A stretch of 64,000 nucleotides of DNA from Paeniglutamicibacter psychrophenolicus (GTDB lineage: Bacteria > Actinomycetota > Actinomycetes > Actinomycetales > Micrococcaceae). The translations under genes and the position numbers were made by a program. Of this stretch, positions 7,710 to 17,488 are shown one piece after another. Position 1 is the first letter of the stretch. The number at the start of each line of letters is the position of its first letter. The stretch is from assembly GCF_017876575.1 (NCBI RefSeq), contig NZ_JAGIOE010000001.1, forward strand, positions 4,258,443 through 4,322,442, read 5' to 3'. A model generated the notes under the pieces. It worked only from the letters and a program-made list of their open reading frames with translations. It was not told the origin of the DNA and made no database searches.

Positions 7710-9194
7710 TTAGTATGCACCTTCCGGTTTGATCATGACCTTCACGGTCCGCCACATGATCATGAGGTCCCCGGTCACCGACCAGTTCTCCACGTAGTAC
7801 AAATCGAGGCGGATGCTTTCATCCATTGGCAGGTCCGAACGTCCGCGGGTCTGCCATAATCCCGTGACGCCTGGCTTGATGTACAGGCGCCGTTCGGTGG
7901 CTCCCTCGTACTGGGCCACTTCGCTCGCCAACGGCGGACGGGGGCCCACCAAGGACATGTCGCCCTTGAGGACGTTGAACAGCTGGGGCAATTCATCGAG
8001 AGAATACTTGCGCATCCATCTGCCCGCGCCGGTGATCCTCGGGTCGGCCTTGTGCTTGAAGAGGTAGCCGTGGCCCTCGTTTTCGCCTTGGAGGCTTTCC
8101 AGTTGGTCCTCGGCATCAACCACCATCGAGCGGAACTTGTACATCTTGAACGGTTCCCCGCTGCGGCCAACCCGATACTGGGAGAAGAAGGCCGGGCCTT
8201 CGCTGTCTTTCCTGACGGTGATTGCCAGGACGGCCAGGACCGGGGCGAGCAGGATCAGCGCGGTCCCCGACAAGACGATGTCCATGGCGCGTTTGACCAC
8301 GTGGTGCCCGCCGTCGAAGTTGGGCAGGTCCACATGCATCAGTGGCAGGCCCTCGACCGGGCGCATCCTGATGCGGGGGCCTGCGACATTCGTCAGGCTC
8401 GAGACCAGGATGATCTGGGTGCGTGATTCTTCCAAACGCCATCCCAGCTTGCGGATCTCTTCGTTGCCGGCACGCAGCGAACCGGCGACGATGACGGCAT
8501 CGGCCCCCGTGCTGGCCACCACGTTTTCCAGGTTGGCCAGGCCCGCGCGTTGCAGGTAGGCCGCACCGTGCCCGGGCACCACCTCTTCGTCATAAACCGC
8601 GCCTACGACCTTGTAGGCCGCACCGGAGTGCTGGGCGAGCCGTTCGGTGACATATCGGATATCCGGTATCTGGCCGACGACCACCACGTGGGACAGGAAG
8701 TGCCCGGACTTGGTGCTTTGCCGCGTCAGCCATTGGCGCCAGAGCCACCGTTCCAGCAGCAGCGCCATCAGCCCGACGGGGTAGACGGCCATAAGGATCC
8801 AGCGGTTCTCCAGCGAATTGGTGAGGATGATGGCCATGGCGGTCCAGCCTGCGGAGACTGCAGTGGCATCGACAACACGCTTGTATTCCATGGCGCCTGC
8901 GCCGATGCGCTGCAATGATCGGGTGCGGTAGAGCGCAAGCAGAAGCATCCAGAACATGGCCGCGACGGCTATCTCCAGCATCCCGGTGCTCGCGACTCCG
9001 GGAAAGGCCATCGAACCGATGGCGGATACCAACACGATGGTTGCTACATCCGTTGCGGTTAGTCGCCACGTGAATCTGCGTCGCCACGCCCTGGCGGGTG
9101 CTTCGACCGTAATCGCCTCGGTGCGGGCGCGCACGTTGGCGCGCACCGGCCACCAACGCGAGGCCGCATCGAATGACTCGTTGATGTTGGTCAT
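7710..9194 (-). CDS. Polyprenyl glycosylphosphotransferase initiating glycan synthesis
   Basis: This is a 494-residue membrane protein of the WbaP/CpsE type. Four or five N-terminal transmembrane helices are followed by a soluble CoA-binding-like region (residues about 150-290). A C-terminal bacterial sugar transferase domain begins at KRAMDIVLSGTALILL and includes YKFRSMVVDAE and LDELPQLFNVLKGDMSLVGP. These hold the conserved catalytic Asp/Glu and Arg residues. The family transfers a sugar-1-phosphate to undecaprenyl phosphate, the first step of a repeat unit. The start MTNINESFD at 9194 is preceded by GAAGGA, a good ribosome site, so the longer upstream frame is not used. It is the first gene of the operon. 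Confidence 0.93.
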   Translation of the reverse strand: MTNINESFDAASRWWPVRANVRARTEAITVEAPARAWRRRFTWRLTATDVATIVLVSAIGSMAFPGVASTGMLEIAVAAMFWMLLLALYRTRSLQRIGAGAMEYKRVVDATAVSAGWTAMAIILTNSLENRWILMAVYPVGLMALLLERWLWRQWLTRQSTKSGHFLSHVVVVGQIPDIRYVTERLAQHSGAAYKVVGAVYDEEVVPGHGAAYLQRAGLANLENVVASTGADAVIVAGSLRAGNEEIRKLGWRLEESRTQIILVSSLTNVAGPRIRMRPVEGLPLMHVDLPNFDGGHHVVKRAMDIVLSGTALILLAPVLAVLAITVRKDSEGPAFFSQYRVGRSGEPFKMYKFRSMVVDAEDQLESLQGENEGHGYLFKHKADPRITGAGRWMRKYSLDELPQLFNVLKGDMSLVGPRPPLASEVAQYEGATERRLYIKPGVTGLWQTRGRSDLPMDESIRLDLYYVENWSVTGDLMIMWRTVKVMIKPEGAY

Positions 9195-9463
9195 GTGAGT
9201 GGTCCTTCGCCATGAAACGGGCTCATGGAAATTGCACGCACACGCGAACAGAATGCGCTGTACATTGTTCCCCAAGTCCCCAAGTTTTGTCCTACAGGTT
9301 GTAGTAATTCCCCAATGTCGATCTGTGTCGAGCTTAGTTCTGGCTCGTTCCGGGTACACGCGTAAACGACTACTCGAATCGGTTCCAGGAGGAGCCAAGT
9401 AGACACTCGGGTCTTACGTGCGTACCGATCCCGAAGGTTCATACCTGTGGATCCCGGACAAGG
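9195..9463 (-). promoter_or_regulatory. Leader/control region of the exopolysaccharide operon
   Basis: This 269-base gene-free stretch lies before the glycosylphosphotransferase. On the minus strand it has two exact TTGGGGAA boxes (9308-9315 and 9268-9275), a third near-copy TTGGGGA (9277-9283), and the dyad CTACA-ggt-TGTAG at 9292-9304. I see no convincing -35/-10 pair, so the start of transcription is unknown. The boxes are 70-120 bases from the start codon, too far to be ribosome sites. They may be regulator or RNA-binding sites. Confidence 0.5.
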
Positions 9464-9497
9464 AAAAACCCCGGCAGAACGCACCGGGGTGGTTTTT
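9464..9497 (-). terminator. Bidirectional-looking intrinsic terminator
   Basis: The sequence reads A5, CCCCGG, a loop of about 9, CCGGGG, then GG and T5, so the hairpin has T-tracts on both strands. On the minus strand it would end transcripts coming from the LuxR gene or from the candidate small RNA above it. That insulates the exopolysaccharide operon from them. Confidence 0.75.
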
Positions 9498-9694
9498 GCG
9501 GAAGGAGCCGGCGGTTGCTGGGGGGTCGATCACGCTCGAAAGCGGATCGCCAACCGCCGACTCCAGTCCTCATGATCAAGTGGTGCCCCTCTCTTGGGGA
9601 CCACTTGCCCCCTTGCCCTGTTCCGGCTCTGGAACCATGTTCCAGGCGGGGGCACCTGACAAGGTCTCTGCCGGGAACAGAATTCCTCGGGGTA
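9464..9694 (-). ncRNA. Candidate structured small RNA (unassigned)
   Basis: This gene-free DNA has consecutive inverted repeats. 9504-9564 is a long arm: GGAG/CTCC, a 9-bp CGGCGGTTG/CAACCGCCG stem, an internal loop, CGATC/GATCG, then CGCT-cgaa-AGCG. 9577-9607 is an 8-bp stem, a bulge and four G-C pairs. 9606-9654 is TGCCCCC/GGGGGCA enclosing three competing GTTCC/GGAAC segments. 9671-9690 is a smaller stem. A minus-strand -10-like TAGTAT (9701-9706) lies upstream and a terminator ends it, giving about 230 nt. Expression and strand are inference. I could not match it to a known RNA family. Confidence 0.45.
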
Positions 9695-9843
9695 ACTCAA
9701 ATACTAGGCAGGAGCCGTCGCCGGCTCACGCGTACGCCCTACCTGATTGTCGGCTGGCCACTACGCGGATTCCGGCTCACGGCTACTCGGTGAAATTCGT
9801 GCCTTGGCCACGGCGGTGCCGGCAGCGAGGCGAGGACGGAAAA

Positions 9844-12483
9844 TTAGGCATCCGCTGCACCCAGTTCTTCCCGACCGCTGATGCCGAGCTTGGCAAAAAC
9901 CCGATACAAATGACCTTCCACGGTCCGCTGGGACACCGTCAGTTTTCGAGCAATCTCCCTGTTGCTCTTTCCTTCCCGCACCAACGAGATGATTTCTTCC
10001 TCGCGTCTGGTCAAGCTCCGCTCATGCAACGCCGGTCGCAGCGGTCCCCAGGCCGTCCCACCCAGTTCCTGGATCCACATGGCCAAACGACGAAGAACGA
10101 GCCCACGCCGGCGTTCATTGCCTTCTGTGGCAAGCCCATGCAGGGATGATGCCAACAGTTCCGCACCCAATCCCGTTTCGCCCACCGAGTAGAGCTCCTC
10201 GGCCAACCGGTCGACCTCTTCGGCCCCTGCCAAGGACGTGAGCTCGAGCGCCGCCGAAAGGGCACTGCTTCTTTGCGAAACGCCCTTGACGCTCAACTGC
10301 CGCAGCCGTTCGCACCCGTTGGGTCCGTCGGCGGAAAGCTGCATTTGCCAGCGCATCAGCAGCAATTGGTGCTCGGTGTGCTCATGCCGTTCTTCCCTGG
10401 CACGAGCAATGAGTTGGTTCAGTCGGTCCGTGTTGGCCGGGGTCGAATCCAGGGCCAGATAGCCTTCGGCGAGGAGCTTCGCATCCACGTTTTCAAGCCC
10501 GTGGTAACCACTTCGCAGTGAGGTTTCCCGGTATTCGGGTGTCTTCCGGTCCTCGGCCTCGTGAAGCTGCGCGTATTCGAAAGCCTCCAGGGCTTCGGCC
10601 AATTCGTACAGCTGGTCCGGGTCGTTGATGGCGAGCTCCGCGCGAGCTTCGGACAGCAGCCGTCCGGCGCGTAGCCAGCGTCCCTGCTGAACGGCGGCGA
10701 AGCCTGCCCAAAGATGCAAGGTGCCGCTCCAGTGCATCTGCAGGCTCGGATGGGCGCCCTCCCGATACGACGCAATTATTCCCACGGCATCGTAATCCCC
10801 CACGGCGATCAATGCCCGCAGGGCGGTAGTCATGAATTGGTAGCCGTCCATCGACTCTGCTTCCGAGTTTGCCCGAATCATGTCCAGGGCCTCAAGTGCG
10901 GCATCGGCCGCTTCAACGAACCGGCCCAGGCCCAAAAGCACCCGGCAGCGCACGTCGCGGCAGTTCAGGAATTCCACGCTCCCGGCGATGCTCCGTCGTT
11001 CGCAGTCCAGGGCATGGTCCAGGACGGCTGAAAGATCTTCCCGTGCCCGGAACTCCAGCCAGAGGTTCAGGACCTCGATCCCGAACCGGGACTTTTCGAG
11101 GGCCCCCGCTTCCTGCCTCGATCCACCGGAGGCAATGGTCTCGGTGCGCTGCGCCCAATCACCGACCAGCGAGCCGATATCGTTGGTGGAATCGCCTTCT
11201 TGCCACAGTGAGCTTGCCTCCACCGATTTGAGCTCGCTGATCAAGGCAAGGTCCGTTGTCTGTGTCAGGGCGTGCCTGATGGTTTCCGTCAGTAGCTGGT
11301 GTTGTCCCATGCCCAGCATGGAACGCGCGGCGAGAAGGGCCAGGAAAGGGTCCTCTTCCCAAACCCCCGTGAGCTGGCAGAGTTCCCAGGCCTCGATGAA
11401 GTCCATGTTCCTGTTGGCAAGGTCGATGGCGTCCACGAATCTCTCGTAGGAGACGATCTCACCGCTTTCGCAGGCCCACAGCAACGTCTTCGGGGAGGTG
11501 ACCAGTTCGGAGACCTGGGCCGAAAAGCGCTTCCACAAGGCTGCGCTGCGCCCCGGCGGGACAAGATCGCGCAACGCGCGCGAGTAAATCGGCGCAGATA
11601 TTTCGATTCTTGAATCATCGACATAGCGGACAAGGCCTGTGCCCACGAGCCTCCCCACGTCGGTGCCCGAAAATTGCTGAAGCGTCTTCGCCTCGGCGGG
11701 TCCCCCCAGTGCCAGGATTTCCAGTGCCTCGGCATCATCAGCGTTAAGTCGCTTTTGGATTTCCGACACCACGGAACTCAGATGAACCCGATCGCTCACC
11801 TGCGGTCCGGTCAGCACCAACCAGTCGGTCGACTCCACGACGAGCCCCTGTTCGATCCCTGCCCGAAGGAACGCATCAATCAGCATCGGGTTTCCACCGC
11901 ATATTGAGGCAATCGCCCTGGCCGAAGTGCTGGTGGGTGGCTTTCCGAAGACCCGTTGCACGTGCTCGGCCACTTCACTGGGTGTAAGTGCACTCAGTGA
12001 AAGGTGACCCAGCCTGGCGCCAAGCTGGGTACTTGCCACCACCGTTTCAATGTGACCATCTCCCACGGCCAACAGAATGAGTTTGATGGTTCCGGCCAAG
12101 GCCAATTGCGAGAGCACGAAGGCGCTCGCGGCGTCGAGGAATTGGGCTTCTTCAACGACAACCAATTGCTTGGAACCCGCAGTCGATTCGAGGCGCAGCG
12201 TCAGGTAGCGCAGTAGCGCCAGCTCCCCCAGAGGTGCATCGAATTCTATGAGCAAAGGCGAAAGTGCGCCAAAGGCGCCTTCACCCAGTATGGGGGAACA
12301 CAGCAAATGCACCGCATCCGCGAGTTCATCTCCCAATACTTCCTGGAGCAGCTGCCTCTTTCTGCTTCCGATCGGCCCGGAAATGACAACGCCCGTGGAT
12401 TCCGTTCGGTCCAGCAAATCGCGCAGTTCCTGACGGAGATCGCGCGCAGGAGATTGGTCGGATTCAAATCCAGGAATTCTCAT
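9844..12483 (-). CDS. Large LuxR-family ATPase-type regulator, degenerate P-loop
   Basis: This 879-residue protein has the layout of LAL (large ATP-binding LuxR) regulators. It has an N-terminal NTPase-like domain, a helical repeat middle and a C-terminal LuxR helix-turn-helix at about 823-879 (SLTRREEEIISLV, then SQRTVEGHLYRVFAKLG). The Walker A position reads GPIGSRKR (36-43), without the usual GK[ST], so ATP binding may be lost. A Walker-B-like VVVEEAQFLDA follows. The start overlaps the stop of the next regulator by four bases, so the two form one transcription unit. Target genes are unknown. The exopolysaccharide operon downstream is the obvious candidate. Confidence 0.9.
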   Translation of the reverse strand: MRIPGFESDQSPARDLRQELRDLLDRTESTGVVISGPIGSRKRQLLQEVLGDELADAVHLLCSPILGEGAFGALSPLLIEFDAPLGELALLRYLTLRLESTAGSKQLVVVEEAQFLDAASAFVLSQLALAGTIKLILLAVGDGHIETVVASTQLGARLGHLSLSALTPSEVAEHVQRVFGKPPTSTSARAIASICGGNPMLIDAFLRAGIEQGLVVESTDWLVLTGPQVSDRVHLSSVVSEIQKRLNADDAEALEILALGGPAEAKTLQQFSGTDVGRLVGTGLVRYVDDSRIEISAPIYSRALRDLVPPGRSAALWKRFSAQVSELVTSPKTLLWACESGEIVSYERFVDAIDLANRNMDFIEAWELCQLTGVWEEDPFLALLAARSMLGMGQHQLLTETIRHALTQTTDLALISELKSVEASSLWQEGDSTNDIGSLVGDWAQRTETIASGGSRQEAGALEKSRFGIEVLNLWLEFRAREDLSAVLDHALDCERRSIAGSVEFLNCRDVRCRVLLGLGRFVEAADAALEALDMIRANSEAESMDGYQFMTTALRALIAVGDYDAVGIIASYREGAHPSLQMHWSGTLHLWAGFAAVQQGRWLRAGRLLSEARAELAINDPDQLYELAEALEAFEYAQLHEAEDRKTPEYRETSLRSGYHGLENVDAKLLAEGYLALDSTPANTDRLNQLIARAREERHEHTEHQLLLMRWQMQLSADGPNGCERLRQLSVKGVSQRSSALSAALELTSLAGAEEVDRLAEELYSVGETGLGAELLASSLHGLATEGNERRRGLVLRRLAMWIQELGGTAWGPLRPALHERSLTRREEEIISLVREGKSNREIARKLTVSQRTVEGHLYRVFAKLGISGREELGAADA

Positions 12484-14615
12484 GGGGCAACTCGGTCCTC
12501 GACCCGCAATGTCGCGACGAGGGTGCTCAGTTCCCTCCGTCCTCCCAATGCCAGCTTGGAATATATTTGATAGAGGTGCCCTTCGACGGTGCGAATGGAA
12601 ACACCAGCGTCGCGCGCGATTTGCTGGTTGTTCAGACCTTGGGCCGCGGCACTCGCGACAAACTTTTCCCGCTTGGTCAGGACCTCCAGCACGGGGTTGT
12701 CCTGCATCATGCGTTCCACGTCTTCGGTGCCCGTACGCACCGCATTTCCCTTTCGGCGCTGCTTCAGCCAGCCGGCAACGGCCAATTTCCCCGCGACCGA
12801 TATGTCGGCAAGGATCTGGTTGGACCGGGGCAAGGCAAAAATTGACAGGTCGTCGCCGACCAGCAGGTCCAGCGCATCAAGAACGCGCTGCTCCCGGTTC
12901 CCGTTGCTTCCCGTGAGCAGCAGTTCTAGCGCTTTTTCCAGGGGTGACCGGTCTTCGGCATGCACGTGGCCGGCGGCGGGCCAGTCGACCGTTGCGCCAT
13001 GATGCAGCGCGACCAAGGTGTCCATTGTTTCGCGCCTTTTGGGCGATCGCGGCGGCAAGTCAATGAGGGAAGCCCGCGCGGCACTGGCATCAGCGGAGGC
13101 CAAGAGCTCACTGAACCACCAGCGAGCGCCACTCCAACGCTCCTGGAAGTCGAGGGCATTGCTGGAAGCCGGCTCGTCCTTGGTGCGCAAGTGGAAAAGC
13201 ATCGATTTCACAAGCCAACGGTCATAGCCCGCGTCGTCCCGTTCAATTTGTGCAAGCACCGATTCCAATACCTGTCGGTCGTTCCCGGGCCTATCACCAA
13301 CGACATTCAAGATGCAGTTGACCATGGCGAGGATTTCGAAGATCGCGGGGGGGATATTGTCCAGGAATTCGTTGACAATGCATTTGAGATATGTTTTTGC
13401 CCGCTGCATCTCCCCGCAAATCAGACACTGCCGAAGTTGTCCCAGCAGCAGGCCAAGGTTCCGGGTGAAACCTTCCGGGCTGCTGGAAAGTTCATCCACC
13501 AAGCGAGACTCCCCGGCGATGAAGTCGTGGAAATTCCCTTCGACAGGCACTGCTTCCGTGTTCAACTCATGGCTGTCGATGCGCGGCTCCGGATGAAGAA
13601 CTCCCGCAAGGAGCGGGGAACTGAGCACCACCAGTTGTCGCTGTCCCCGATGCCGCTGGGCAAAACCCCAGCCGATGAGGTGGTCCAGGTCCATGAGTTC
13701 GTCGTTCACCAGTCCACGGATGTGCATGGGTTGCTCAACTGCGATCCGCGCCAATAGGTTCCTCTGCGACACGGTCAGAATCGCAATTTGCGAAAGTGCC
13801 ATGGACTCCAATTGCCCATCCCTGGGCCAAGGCCCTGGACCCAGCACCAAATATCCCTCATGGAGAAGAAGCTTTCCACAGGCAATCGCGTCTTGACCCA
13901 AGGCATGCAACCAACCTGGATTTCCTTGGCTCTGGTGCCACACGGCCGCCGTGACCATGGGCGTGGGAATGGCGTCGAATTCCTTCTGCAGGGCCGCATG
14001 GACTTCGTCAATGCGAAGCGCCCCGAGCCGGATTTCGCGGTGTCCACGACCACTGCTGACGGGTGCGAACTCAGGCGGCAGGAACTCGGCCTGTTCGGCC
14101 ATGACAACCAGGAGAATGCTTCTGTTGTGGGTCATCTGGGCGAGAACCGCCCGGGACGGAGCATCCAATAGTTGAGGATATTGGACCACGACCACCGGAC
14201 GCTGGCCGTGGATGGTGGCGTGCTTCGAAATCACCCGCATGACACTGGTCGGGCTTATTTCTTCGTTGGACCCCAGCTGGGCAAGCAGGAAAGCCAATGC
14301 CCCATAGGTCAGGTGCTGCGCATACGGCGTCCCGATGACGTGGATTGGCTCGGCCAGGCCGACAACCATTCGCTGGACCGCGCTCACCATGGTCGCCCGA
14401 TCATCGCCGTGCTCCCCAAGGAATACGATCGAGTTGGTTTTGGCATCACCAAGTGCCGACTGCAGCTCCCTCAGGCACTGCCTTCGTGGTGAGTCCCCAA
14501 GTAGTTCGGCAAAAACCGATTGTCCAGACACCTCGGCATTATTCGAAATTTCTGCATGCCAAGAGAGTTCCATCATGCTGTTCACCCGTTCCCCAATTCC
14601 GGTTAAACCTGCCAT
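12480..14615 (-). CDS. Large LuxR-family ATPase-type regulator, degenerate P-loop
   Basis: The product is about 711 residues from the ATG at 14615. An upstream GTG (14678) or the methionine at 14576 are alternatives. The C-terminal LuxR-type helix-turn-helix contains LTKREKFVASAAAQGL and SIRTVEGHLYQIYSKLA. The N-terminal domain resembles the other two regulators, but the P-loop position is GEHGDDRAT, lacking the lysine, so it is probably not a functional ATPase. A -10-like TAGGAT lies at 14654-14659 (minus strand). The resulting leader carries two exact TTGGGGAA boxes, shared with the exopolysaccharide leader. It is translationally coupled to the following regulator. Confidence 0.87.
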   Translation of the reverse strand: MAGLTGIGERVNSMMELSWHAEISNNAEVSGQSVFAELLGDSPRRQCLRELQSALGDAKTNSIVFLGEHGDDRATMVSAVQRMVVGLAEPIHVIGTPYAQHLTYGALAFLLAQLGSNEEISPTSVMRVISKHATIHGQRPVVVVQYPQLLDAPSRAVLAQMTHNRSILLVVMAEQAEFLPPEFAPVSSGRGHREIRLGALRIDEVHAALQKEFDAIPTPMVTAAVWHQSQGNPGWLHALGQDAIACGKLLLHEGYLVLGPGPWPRDGQLESMALSQIAILTVSQRNLLARIAVEQPMHIRGLVNDELMDLDHLIGWGFAQRHRGQRQLVVLSSPLLAGVLHPEPRIDSHELNTEAVPVEGNFHDFIAGESRLVDELSSSPEGFTRNLGLLLGQLRQCLICGEMQRAKTYLKCIVNEFLDNIPPAIFEILAMVNCILNVVGDRPGNDRQVLESVLAQIERDDAGYDRWLVKSMLFHLRTKDEPASSNALDFQERWSGARWWFSELLASADASAARASLIDLPPRSPKRRETMDTLVALHHGATVDWPAAGHVHAEDRSPLEKALELLLTGSNGNREQRVLDALDLLVGDDLSIFALPRSNQILADISVAGKLAVAGWLKQRRKGNAVRTGTEDVERMMQDNPVLEVLTKREKFVASAAAQGLNNQQIARDAGVSIRTVEGHLYQIYSKLALGGRRELSTLVATLRVEDRVAP

Positions 14616-14620
14616 GGACC

Positions 14621-14659
14621 TTCCCCAAGTAAGTCCATGACAGCCCTGTCGCCATCCTA
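14621..14659 (-). promoter_or_regulatory. Promoter/leader of the regulator pair with TTGGGGAA box
   Basis: On the minus strand TAGGAT (14654-14659) would be a -10, with transcription starting near 14647. The leader then contains TTGGGGAA at 14621-14628, and a second copy at 14589-14596 lies just inside the proposed coding start. No good -35 is visible. If translation really begins at 14576, both boxes are in the leader. Confidence 0.4.
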
Positions 14660-14728
14660 CGGCGCTTCGCTCGGCCACGCACCAGTAGCGAATACACTTA
14701 GTCCACTCGTTCGCTTTGCCCGCGGTAC

Positions 14729-17488
14729 TTAAGTATTCCTCCCCCCAATGTCGGACTCCACGCCGGAGCCGGAAGTCGCGTCCAGAAAAATCTGGATCAG
14801 TGCTTCGCGGGACGCCACGTTGAGCCGCTGGTATATCTGGTACAGGTGGCCCTCAACGGTCCGAATTTTCAGCTGCAACCTGTCAGATATCTCGCGGTTG
14901 CTGGCGCCGGTGGCAGCTTCAGCGACGATCATCCGCTGTCGCCGAGTGAGCAAGGAAAGCACACTGCTTGCCGAGCTCCTGGCGGACACACCCATGGGTG
15001 CGCCAGCGCTCTCCGGCGCTGTCTTCCGTGGTGCCGAAGTGATGCCGGATCCGGATCGAGCGAACATTACCTCAATTGAATCGGCAAATGAGGGATGGCC
15101 CAACCCGCGAAGTGCACTGAGTACTTCCCGTTGCAACTCCCTGTTGCTTCCCTCAAAGCTTTGCACCAATGCGGCAACAAGCTCCGCCACCGGGCCATCG
15201 ATTCGTTGCGCACATTCAAGCAGTTGCGTGTCACCTTCTCGGTGGCCCATTCTTAGCAACGACATGCGCTGGGCAAGCTCAAGGCCGAGGTCGCCGTGCG
15301 CGGCGCTCGCGGTTGCGCCGGCAAGCAGACCGGCAATTGCCTCGTCCACATGGCCAAGGTGGAAGAGCGCATCGGCTCGCAACATGGCAACCGTCTGGCC
15401 GGACTCCCAAGCGGCGACAGCGGGCATGACGTCCAGCTCAGCGAGGAAGCGCTCGGCAGTTTCCCGATCCAGGTATGAGGCCGCCACTGCAGCCGCGGCA
15501 ATCGCCAACGGCAAGTACCCTGCGGTATCTATCGTTCGCAATTGTTCGATCTCGACGGTTATCAGCTCCAACGCCTCTCGAGGGCGCCCGCCCAACACGC
15601 TGTTGAGCGAAGAGTACAGGCCATTGATATCGGTGATCCGTGGAGACTCCTCGCCGCCAACCCACGCCGCATCAATGAGCTCGACGGCACTTTTCCATTC
15701 GCCGCAGAGCAGGTACAGGTCGACGAGATGCAGCTTGACGCTTTGTCCAACGGCCGGAGGGAGCGACTCCTGTCGCAGCGAAAAAAGCAGTTCACGTCCG
15801 CGTCTGACACCTTCCCTGACCTCGCCACGGCGCACCGAGTGCAGGTTCTGGAAGCACTGCCACCTGAGCTGGTCCTGCTTCCCCAGCAGCGGGTGGATGT
15901 AAGCTGCCCCGTCGAGGGCAAGTCGTTCACCCAGGCGGAAGCTGGTTTCGGCTTCCAAGAGATCAAGTTTTCCTCGCAGTGCCAGAAAATCCGTCCGGTT
16001 TCCCGGCTCGCTGGAGTACCGCGCATCAATATCGGCTCGGGCGCGCGCCACACCCTGTCGGAAGGCGTCGCTTGGTGAACCGAGCCGCAGCGAGTCGAGC
16101 GCCATCGACGCCAGTTCCAGGCGGATCAGGTCGACCGGGCTGTGTACATGTTCCGGAACTCCGGGAGCCGACAGCCCCGTCCCCGGCTCATGACGCAAAA
16201 GAGAGAGCATTTCCCGGGCCCGTTCACGTTGGCCACCGCGGACCGCCGCCTCCAGTGCCAACAGCCGCGCGTCTAGCGGAGGGTCGTCGAGCGCCGCCAG
16301 TATTTGGAGGCACAGCTCGACTTGTCCCTCGGCGTAGGCCTGCTCTGCGGCTTGCATCCGGAGCCGGGCGCCGGAGTCGATCCCGGCGGCCTGTTCCCAT
16401 TTCAGAAGGACCAGGGGTGTCAGAACCCCGTCTGCCCCCGGTGTGTTCCGCATTTGCTCTAGGAGTTCCAGTGCGATGCCAGGCGCAGTGTCCTCGGCAA
16501 TGCACTGGCCACTCAGTCCCCCGCGCAGCCGCACCTTGCGCGCATACTTCCCGCGAATCTCGAGTATGCCCTCGGAAAAGATTGAATCCACGGCCTGCCC
16601 GGGGTTGAGCGCAACCAGGAGGCTGAGGGGGATCTCCTCGGAGAATGCCAAGAAGCGCAGTACCCGTTGTTCCGGCGTCGAGAGTCTTCTGAGCTTTTGA
16701 ACCACCAGACCGCGGCTGCGCGGTCCCGGCGGACCGGCAACGCCATGGACCACCCAGGATTTTTCCGCGAATTCAAGATAACCCTGTTCGCGCCAGTCGT
16801 GGGCAACTGCAGCGAGCATGTGTATCTGCCCCGCCGAGGCACACCACAATTGGTAGGTGGCCGTCCGGCTGATCTCAGCCCCCAAGGCCTTGGCCAGCAG
16901 ATCATGGGTCATGCCCAAGGTCAGGGGATACAGCCTGACCGGTTGCAGGTCGACGGTGGAGCCAAGGTCATTGCCTGTCCCGGGCTCCGCCGAGTCTTGC
17001 CCATCGGCGATGCATAGCAGCGAGATGCTGCTCGCCAACGTCAGCGATGACAGGAATGAAATGCTTGATGCTCCAAGCCGCAAGCCGGCGGGGATGAAGA
17101 TCATCACATGCCGCTCACCGGCCCTCGCATCCAGGAGCGCCTTGACCACGCCGAGTTCCCGGTACCGCGATTCTTCGCCCAGTCCCTCCAACCGACGCAG
17201 TTTGCCGGCGAGCTCCATGGAGGTCTGGTGGCGTTCGGGATGCTCGAGGTCGATAATGAACGCCCTGTCCTGTAGCTTCCGCATCACGGCCTTGGCAAGG
17301 GTCCGCTTTCCGACTCCGCTGGGTCCCTCAAGCAAAGCTCCGGGACCATTGAGTACCGCCCCAATGGTCTCTTCCAGCAATTCGTAATGCGCGAAAACAT
17401 CCCAATCAAAATCATGATCCGGCATTGTCGCCTGATCATGATTCGGTGGTGATGCTGATGTCGCGGTCCCCAAACCGTTGATCTGCAC
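14729..17488 (-). CDS. Large LuxR-family ATPase-type regulator (LAL type)
   Basis: This is a 919-residue protein and the third of the tandem set, with the most intact nucleotide-binding loop: GPSGVGKRT at about 55-63. A helical, TPR-like middle (about 350-800) is followed by a LuxR helix-turn-helix in the last 75 residues (LLTRRQRMIVAEAATGAS, then IRTVEGHLYQIYQRL). The GTG start at 17488 has AAAGGTGA eight bases upstream. It is separated from the pair below by more than 100 bases and so may be transcribed separately. Role by family: a signal- or maltose-type activator using ATP. The ligand and targets here are unknown. Confidence 0.9.
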   Translation of the reverse strand: MQINGLGTATSASPPNHDQATMPDHDFDWDVFAHYELLEETIGAVLNGPGALLEGPSGVGKRTLAKAVMRKLQDRAFIIDLEHPERHQTSMELAGKLRRLEGLGEESRYRELGVVKALLDARAGERHVMIFIPAGLRLGASSISFLSSLTLASSISLLCIADGQDSAEPGTGNDLGSTVDLQPVRLYPLTLGMTHDLLAKALGAEISRTATYQLWCASAGQIHMLAAVAHDWREQGYLEFAEKSWVVHGVAGPPGPRSRGLVVQKLRRLSTPEQRVLRFLAFSEEIPLSLLVALNPGQAVDSIFSEGILEIRGKYARKVRLRGGLSGQCIAEDTAPGIALELLEQMRNTPGADGVLTPLVLLKWEQAAGIDSGARLRMQAAEQAYAEGQVELCLQILAALDDPPLDARLLALEAAVRGGQRERAREMLSLLRHEPGTGLSAPGVPEHVHSPVDLIRLELASMALDSLRLGSPSDAFRQGVARARADIDARYSSEPGNRTDFLALRGKLDLLEAETSFRLGERLALDGAAYIHPLLGKQDQLRWQCFQNLHSVRRGEVREGVRRGRELLFSLRQESLPPAVGQSVKLHLVDLYLLCGEWKSAVELIDAAWVGGEESPRITDINGLYSSLNSVLGGRPREALELITVEIEQLRTIDTAGYLPLAIAAAAVAASYLDRETAERFLAELDVMPAVAAWESGQTVAMLRADALFHLGHVDEAIAGLLAGATASAAHGDLGLELAQRMSLLRMGHREGDTQLLECAQRIDGPVAELVAALVQSFEGSNRELQREVLSALRGLGHPSFADSIEVMFARSGSGITSAPRKTAPESAGAPMGVSARSSASSVLSLLTRRQRMIVAEAATGASNREISDRLQLKIRTVEGHLYQIYQRLNVASREALIQIFLDATSGSGVESDIGGRNT

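Follow-up and report, generated by a model that had tools for sequence, protein, structure and literature searches.

We have identified a conserved RNA hairpin on the minus strand of a window of 64,000 nucleotides (the whole stretch of DNA that was analysed) from Paeniglutamicibacter psychrophenolicus, and it almost certainly represents a genuine RNA family that matches no Rfam entry. We propose that this structured regulatory RNA forms a new family of the Micrococcaceae that is associated with exopolysaccharide loci, and that the RNA would control, by pairing, a short leader ORF coupled to a transferase gene. This statement, taken whole and with the regulatory role as a part of it, is our best explanation and a tentative one that falls somewhat short of probable.

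Genomic setting

The minus strand carries all features of interest at this locus. Ahead of the RNA, three large regulators of the LuxR family with a GerE domain stand in tandem (9844-17488), and the one that adjoins it on the upstream side (PF00196) lies at 9844-12483. They are followed by the intergenic stretch that holds 9464-9706, by the WbaP-type bacterial sugar transferase (PF02397, 7710-9194) that is gene 1 of the glycan operon, and by more glycan genes. A small leader ORF of 24 aa (9191-9265) has its TGA overlapping the ATG of the transferase, and the leader ORFs of the parsed relatives have 24-28 aa. LuxR genes that flank on both sides or stand in tandem were also seen at several other copies of the RNA.

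A covarying hairpin on the minus strand

The sequence-only reading had described the intergenic stretch as an unassigned structured RNA with consecutive inverted repeats and no coding support. The repeats are present, with arms of 14 nt at 9504-9517 and 9551-9564 that are 93% complementary, and the minus strand of 9464-9706 folds with -118.1 kcal/mol (z = -5.75), none of 200 shuffles being equally good. The plus strand of the same stretch gives a fold z of -4.57. Considering that the stem has many G-U pairs, which an antisense reading would turn into A-C, we fixed the strand as minus. The core hairpin, which is the part matched by our covariance models R1 and R2, occupies 9500-9573 and is composed of a 14-bp outer stem, a 3'-side bulge and an apical stem; it scores 86.5 bits with R2, the training set of which contains the window sequence itself. 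The bulge ACCCCCCAG (9518-9526) is C-rich and conserved, with CCCCAG at this place in 71 of the 77 copies that we aligned. We regard 9464-9706 as approximately the entire predicted transcript and 9500-9573 as its conserved core. The eight aligned Paeniglutamicibacter copies do not share any one reading frame across the hairpin.

The structured RNA itself was borne out by compensatory changes among relatives. Two-sided changes occur in 15 of 22 pairs when 23 copies are compared and in 21 of 22 pairs with 77 copies, where 96.0% of the cells pair and none of 500 shuffles reached any of five covariation measures. Because the model guided the 77-copy alignment and the shuffles are blind to relatedness, we also folded an alignment of 16 diverse copies that was made without regard to structure. 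This gave the same outer stem with 13 pairs, seven of them with two-sided changes, and the apical stem was missing from the fold. Bulge columns 67-72 are conserved at 94-99% in the 77 copies.

A switch of three mutually exclusive GTTCC/GGAAC/GTTCC pairings had also been suggested. Its letters are present at 9620-9643, and other letters stand there in the five more distant aligned members of the genus, so that the form is restricted to the window and, partly, its two closest relatives among the eight aligned. We set the switch aside because its letters are without conservation; the covarying, conserved element is the hairpin at 9500-9573 and not this region. Some distant members of the genus show candidate competing pairings of their own by eye (for instance, in genome G002, GAATC with several GATTC).

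Spread of the family

A DNA search with the whole stretch matched 10 of 59 genomes, eight with the core and two with only about 25 bases near the terminator, and none of the 44 genomes outside the genus. The core was found in this way in 8 of the 15 genus genomes, window positions 9497-9570 being the most conserved. Across these eight, the -10-like box, TACGCGTG at 20-21 nt before the box and the hairpin with six or seven C are kept, and the apical loop and the other hairpins are variable. The first impression of a genus-only feature was overturned by matches to the promoter pattern and by the covariance models. Model R1, built on eight sequences, found copies near a transferase gene in Arthrobacter, Tersicoccus, Glutamicibacter and other Micrococcaceae. 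Model R2, built on 23 copies that came partly from genomes counted here, matched 130 of 240 sampled Micrococcaceae genomes in 17 of 32 genera (E up to 0.01), and 14 of the 15 genomes within the genus. An order-wide scan (E up to 0.001) matched 23 of 396 genomes, of which 22 belong to Micrococcaceae and one lies outside with a weak match (31.8 bits); both the family and the order scan used stricter filters, by which weak matches are lost. Up to four distinct places per genome occur among the matches listed (G032, G074), and the match counts reach five per genome with antisense matches possibly included. A 15-base bulge pattern allowing one mismatch hit 73 of 245 family genomes, mostly by chance, and we rejected it; the seven places that it matched exactly all coincide with RNA copies in the genus.

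The 77-copy alignment (A5) was drawn from 70 sources, namely the window, nine earlier loci and 60 regions that were chosen non-randomly, by genus spread and score, among the listed R2 matches; the source L150 yielded no match. The cut-off for a copy was placed below 35.5 bits, the score of the weakest sense match that we kept, and above 32.5 bits, that of the best antisense match, which excluded one weak sense-strand match (L205:4178, 25.2 bits). Alignment A4 is A3 minus its one antisense row, and L051 and L057 are absent from its sources.

Comparison with Rfam 15 supported the unassigned status: no family reached its gathering score in the window or in the loci of eight relatives, and the seven matches up to E 10 in 9190-9850 (mir-203 and others) are all far under their gathering scores. 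Searching the open-access literature, we found no paper whose title or opening lines of abstract describe this RNA.

The genome of the window holds a second, variant copy on the minus strand about 18 kb past the window edge (G000:C1:4240155-4240224, L203:6156-6225). It has the bulge CCCCCCAC and runs straight into a U-run, after which an aminotransferase class V gene follows. Copies of L236, L237 and L247:3043 have CCCCCATC bulges, and the copies with either bulge are possibly a separate subfamily. Tandem copies in one leader region were seen at L225:4992-5181 and L259:4973-5428. By eye, L064, L052 and L051 carry a small hairpin 5' of the core with the loop UCCCCAG, its stem changed in L051, which may be a second site exposing CCCCAG.

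Promoter-like elements and terminator

The stretch had been read as being transcribed separately, and we predict the same from a promoter-like element and a terminator of its own; a separate minus-strand RNA in the window is, on these signals, highly probable. TAGTAT is indeed present on the minus strand at 9706-9701, where it belongs to an element (9701-9734) with TACGCGTG at 9734-9727 and a spacing of 20 nt. TANTNT-NTGA is kept in all eight aligned genomes. With its 5' end placed 6-7 nt after the -10 box, the predicted RNA would span 9464-9694 on the minus strand (about 230 nt). The expected terminator with a T-tract was also found, as a terminator-like hairpin at 9490-9468 with a T-run at 9467-9464 after it. 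The terminator scan found one where 0.8 would be expected, so that it counts only because it recurs at the same place in relatives. About 25 bases matching the end of this terminator (96%) occur elsewhere in the same genome (G000:C1:3706381-3706405), and also at places in G001, G003 and G010.

A second element of like kind, TACGCGTG-N20-TAAGCT (9331-9364, minus strand), stands before the glycan operon. The pattern TACGCGTG-N20/21-TANNNT, which was derived from some of the loci that it then matched, has 23 matches in the 15 genus genomes, 19 of them at an RNA copy or at a glycan operon. Since the reversed control pattern has 34 matches, it is the location and not the number of matches that is special. 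One further match adjoins a doubtful copy (L150; 22.5 bits with R1, no match with R2), and several matches revealed hairpins too diverged for the DNA search. Of the three matches in the genome of the window, two are the elements already described, at 9734-9701 for the RNA and at 9364-9331 for the glycan operon, and a promoter spacing of 15-19 gave no match in this genome. ACKCGTG-N20-TAGNNT behaved alike, with 15 of 19 matches at an RNA copy or a glycan operon (one placed by analogy with a sister genome) and 39 matches for its reversed control. Within 420 nt upstream of the hairpin, ACNCGTG-N19-22-TANNNT occurs at 29 of the 77 copies and at none on the opposite strand of the same DNA.

Upstream of the element for the RNA lie repeats (9739-9789, minus strand) that are candidate LuxR-type sites: CGAGTAG at 9789-9783, CGCGTAGT at 9767-9760 and AGGTAG at 9744-9739. 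Their columns are largely kept in the genus alignment, and of all 7-mers in the 350 nt upstream of the copies CGAGTAG is the most frequent (21 of 77). We consider LuxR-type proteins candidates for binding there.

Two arrangements of the same hairpin

Copies fall into 46 with GAGACC in the apical loop and 31 others, the window among them. On the one hand, the GAGACC-type copies are usually followed, where a transferase is present, by its start less than 100 nt away; a terminator occurs in 5 of the 46 (1-2 in shuffles), and the upstream element in 10. On the other hand, the upstream element is found at 19 of the 31 other copies. A second promoter-like element lies within 500 nt of 13 of these 31, and our script found a terminator-like hairpin between hairpin and element in 10 of the 13. 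In other relatives the hairpin sits within the leader of the operon, unlike the separate RNA predicted in the window. The signals by which a trans-acting small RNA is recognised, its own promoter and terminator and no conserved ORF, appear as sequence signals in the window type and not in the cis type. Several GAGACC-type leaders (L262, L251, L226 and others) carry the hairpin in frame in a leader ORF of mostly 66-117 codons with a recurring peptide like EPAAxKPSETKAFPQPSSAP, where selection may act on the peptide or on the RNA alone. The leader ORF of L232 is fused to the transferase.

At 46 of the 77 copies, a LuxR-type gene of the same strand has its end no more than 1 kb upstream (opposite strand, one), a transferase lies downstream at 36 (opposite strand, none), and 30 copies have both. 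No transferase was detected beside the remaining 41, some of which precede genes of other kinds: glycosyltransferase family 2 (L008, L148), polysaccharide deacetylase (L241), a gene with a Wzz match below the cut-off (L204) as well as aminotransferase class V (L203, L236), an ANTAR-domain gene (L244) and one of metallo-beta-lactamase fold (L246). Based on the conserved position and the promoter-like elements, control of glycan genes by the RNA is plausible.

Candidate pairing targets

Three TTGGGG runs in the operon leader of the window (9315-9310, 9283-9278 and 9275-9270, minus strand; 9270-9315 in all) are candidate sites for pairing with the bulge. When the four near-duplicates among the 13 leaders behind a second element are dropped, (T/G)TGGGG is present in nine of nine, four of which come from one genus (2000 rounds of mononucleotide shuffling: mean 1.1, maximum 6). 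In 8 of the 13 the motif is 4-7 nt ahead of an ORF of 24-28 codons with a stop overlapping the transferase start, and in two a glycosyltransferase gene itself follows; in three leaders (L208, L210, L240) the ORF was missed by the script and read by eye. Of the 46 GAGACC-type copies, 26 have GGTCTC upstream (mean 5.2 and maximum 10 in dinucleotide shuffles) and 20 lack it there, compared with 2 of the 31 other copies that have it. GGTCTC is followed by an ATG within 12 nt in 22 of the 26, and the ORF that begins there runs through the hairpin in 21. A transferase is near in 18 of these 21; in 17 of the 18 its frame has a start codon between 4 nt before the end of the ORF and 1 nt past it, and the other one is fused in frame. 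L225 is counted twice here, with two tandem hairpins in one leader. Therefore, each of the two arrangements has, next to the start of a transferase-coupled leader ORF, a motif that is complementary to an exposed part of the hairpin.

This is not a general enrichment of G-runs around the RNA copies, a possibility that we considered and rejected. TTGGGG is found near GAGACC-type copies upstream in 9 of 46 (dinucleotide-shuffle mean 5.0, maximum 10) and downstream in none (mean 4.3), and near the other copies upstream in 6 of 31 (mean 5.4) and downstream in 10 (mean 3.9, maximum 7), the sole class that is raised. Several results speak against pairing. The bulge-leader duplex had no advantage in energy over duplexes with a shuffled leader, from 28 to 172 out of 200 of which did as well, in a test where the script took the wrong C-run in 2 of 13. 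Covariation between loop and target at a seventh pair is weak and comes from related sequences (Fisher p 0.037, permutation 305 of 5000). The G-runs before AUG could just be ribosome-binding sites, and 36 of the 46 GAGACC-loop copies are without the strict upstream promoter pattern.

Proposed mechanism and alternatives

We propose that in the window the promoters of the RNA and of the glycan operon, being of the same kind, are presumably both activated by the neighbouring LuxR-family regulators. The RNA, ended by its intrinsic terminator, would most likely tune the translation of the WbaP-type transferase: the exposed CCCCCCAG bulge may pair with the (C/U)UGGGG runs a few bases before the start of the 24-codon leader ORF, and the overlap of its stop with the transferase start would provide the coupling. 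Repression is assumed. The Arthrobacter-type relatives would use the same hairpin in cis within the leader ORF, where the GAGACC loop faces GGUCUC near the start codon. That one hairpin has two such uses under the same LuxR-type promoter, kissing its own leader-ORF start by the apical loop in cis and reaching the same place through the bulge as a separate RNA in trans, is a reading that we hold to be less likely than not.

The strict conservation of the bulge columns while the stems vary could also mean that a protein or a sugar-related ligand recognises the bulge (and the GAGACC loop), with the RNA reporting or sequestering it and the leader pairing incidental; the copies ahead of glycosyltransferase family 2 and polysaccharide deacetylase genes would fit as well. 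We consider this unlikely, as the core is a single hairpin without a multi-branched pocket and the placement of the leader motif follows the RNA type. It is rather improbable that the RNA is a cis attenuator, in which transcription from the RNA promoter enters the operon and the C-run of the bulge competes for the G-rich arm of the terminator (9464-9490 in the window), making termination conditional. The terminator-like hairpins right after the core would suit such a device, the more so as 9 of the 10 have by eye a GGG or GGGG run in the 3' arm, but in the 13 copies concerned a second promoter-like element, past the terminator, belongs to the operon itself, and terminators are few in the GAGACC type. 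The frequent LuxR gene upstream and the few copies that run straight into U-runs (L203, L053) could point to an mRNA 3' element, whose hairpins protect or terminate the regulator transcript and have no regulatory target. This is very improbable in view of the promoter-like elements close upstream of 29 hairpins, of a C-rich bulge that a stability hairpin would not need to keep fixed, and of the copies that lie downstream of a transferase instead (L216, L205, L206). An artefact of functionless GC-rich hairpins, which the good folding of both strands might suggest, is a negligible prospect, contradicted by the covariation and also by the restricted phylogeny, the fixed position and the promoter-like elements.

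Comparison with known systems

The 6C RNA, a small RNA of Actinomycetales, is Rfam family RF01066. At gathering score its model matched neither the window nor the loci of eight relatives, and it is absent from the matches up to E 10 in 9190-9850. It is described as having two stem-loops that typically carry six C each (PMC4046766). The RNA of the window is likewise an actinobacterial RNA exposing a run of about six C, but it has one C-run, in the 3'-side bulge of a long stem and not in an apical loop, and its family is bound to one kind of locus. The EAR RNA acts by processive antitermination, which allows read-through of terminators within the operon. This EAR or epsC motif has been reported as a structured RNA in potential leaders of Bacillus exopolysaccharide genes (PMC2864571). 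Our RNA shares the position at exopolysaccharide gene leaders but comes from a different phylum and ends in a predicted terminator, and the epsC/EAR model was not matched in the window, in the eight relatives' loci or, up to E 10, in 9190-9850.

C-rich small RNAs of Firmicutes such as IsrR and RoxS use an unpaired C-rich stretch to pair with ribosome-binding sites. The window RNA resembles them in this stretch, whereas its C-run is the bulge of a conserved hairpin that is also used in cis; we know of no sequence or structural relation between them. Short upstream ORFs are described as control points for iraD, through the protein CsrA, and for ilvB-II of Corynebacterium, where transcription attenuation by a branched-chain-rich peptide was proposed. 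Control of a main gene through a short upstream ORF is what we propose for the window RNA as well, but here a structured RNA would face the start of the leader ORF.

Implications

In summary, this study adds an RNA family that has no match in Rfam 15 although more than half of the genomes sampled from a common family of soil bacteria carry it. If the pairing holds, the RNA would place a post-transcriptional control point at the first step of polysaccharide assembly. The relatives that use the hairpin in cis and in trans would then allow a direct test of the origin of a small RNA; if the cis/trans reading is true, they would document in nature the change of a cis leader into a small RNA, or the reverse change.
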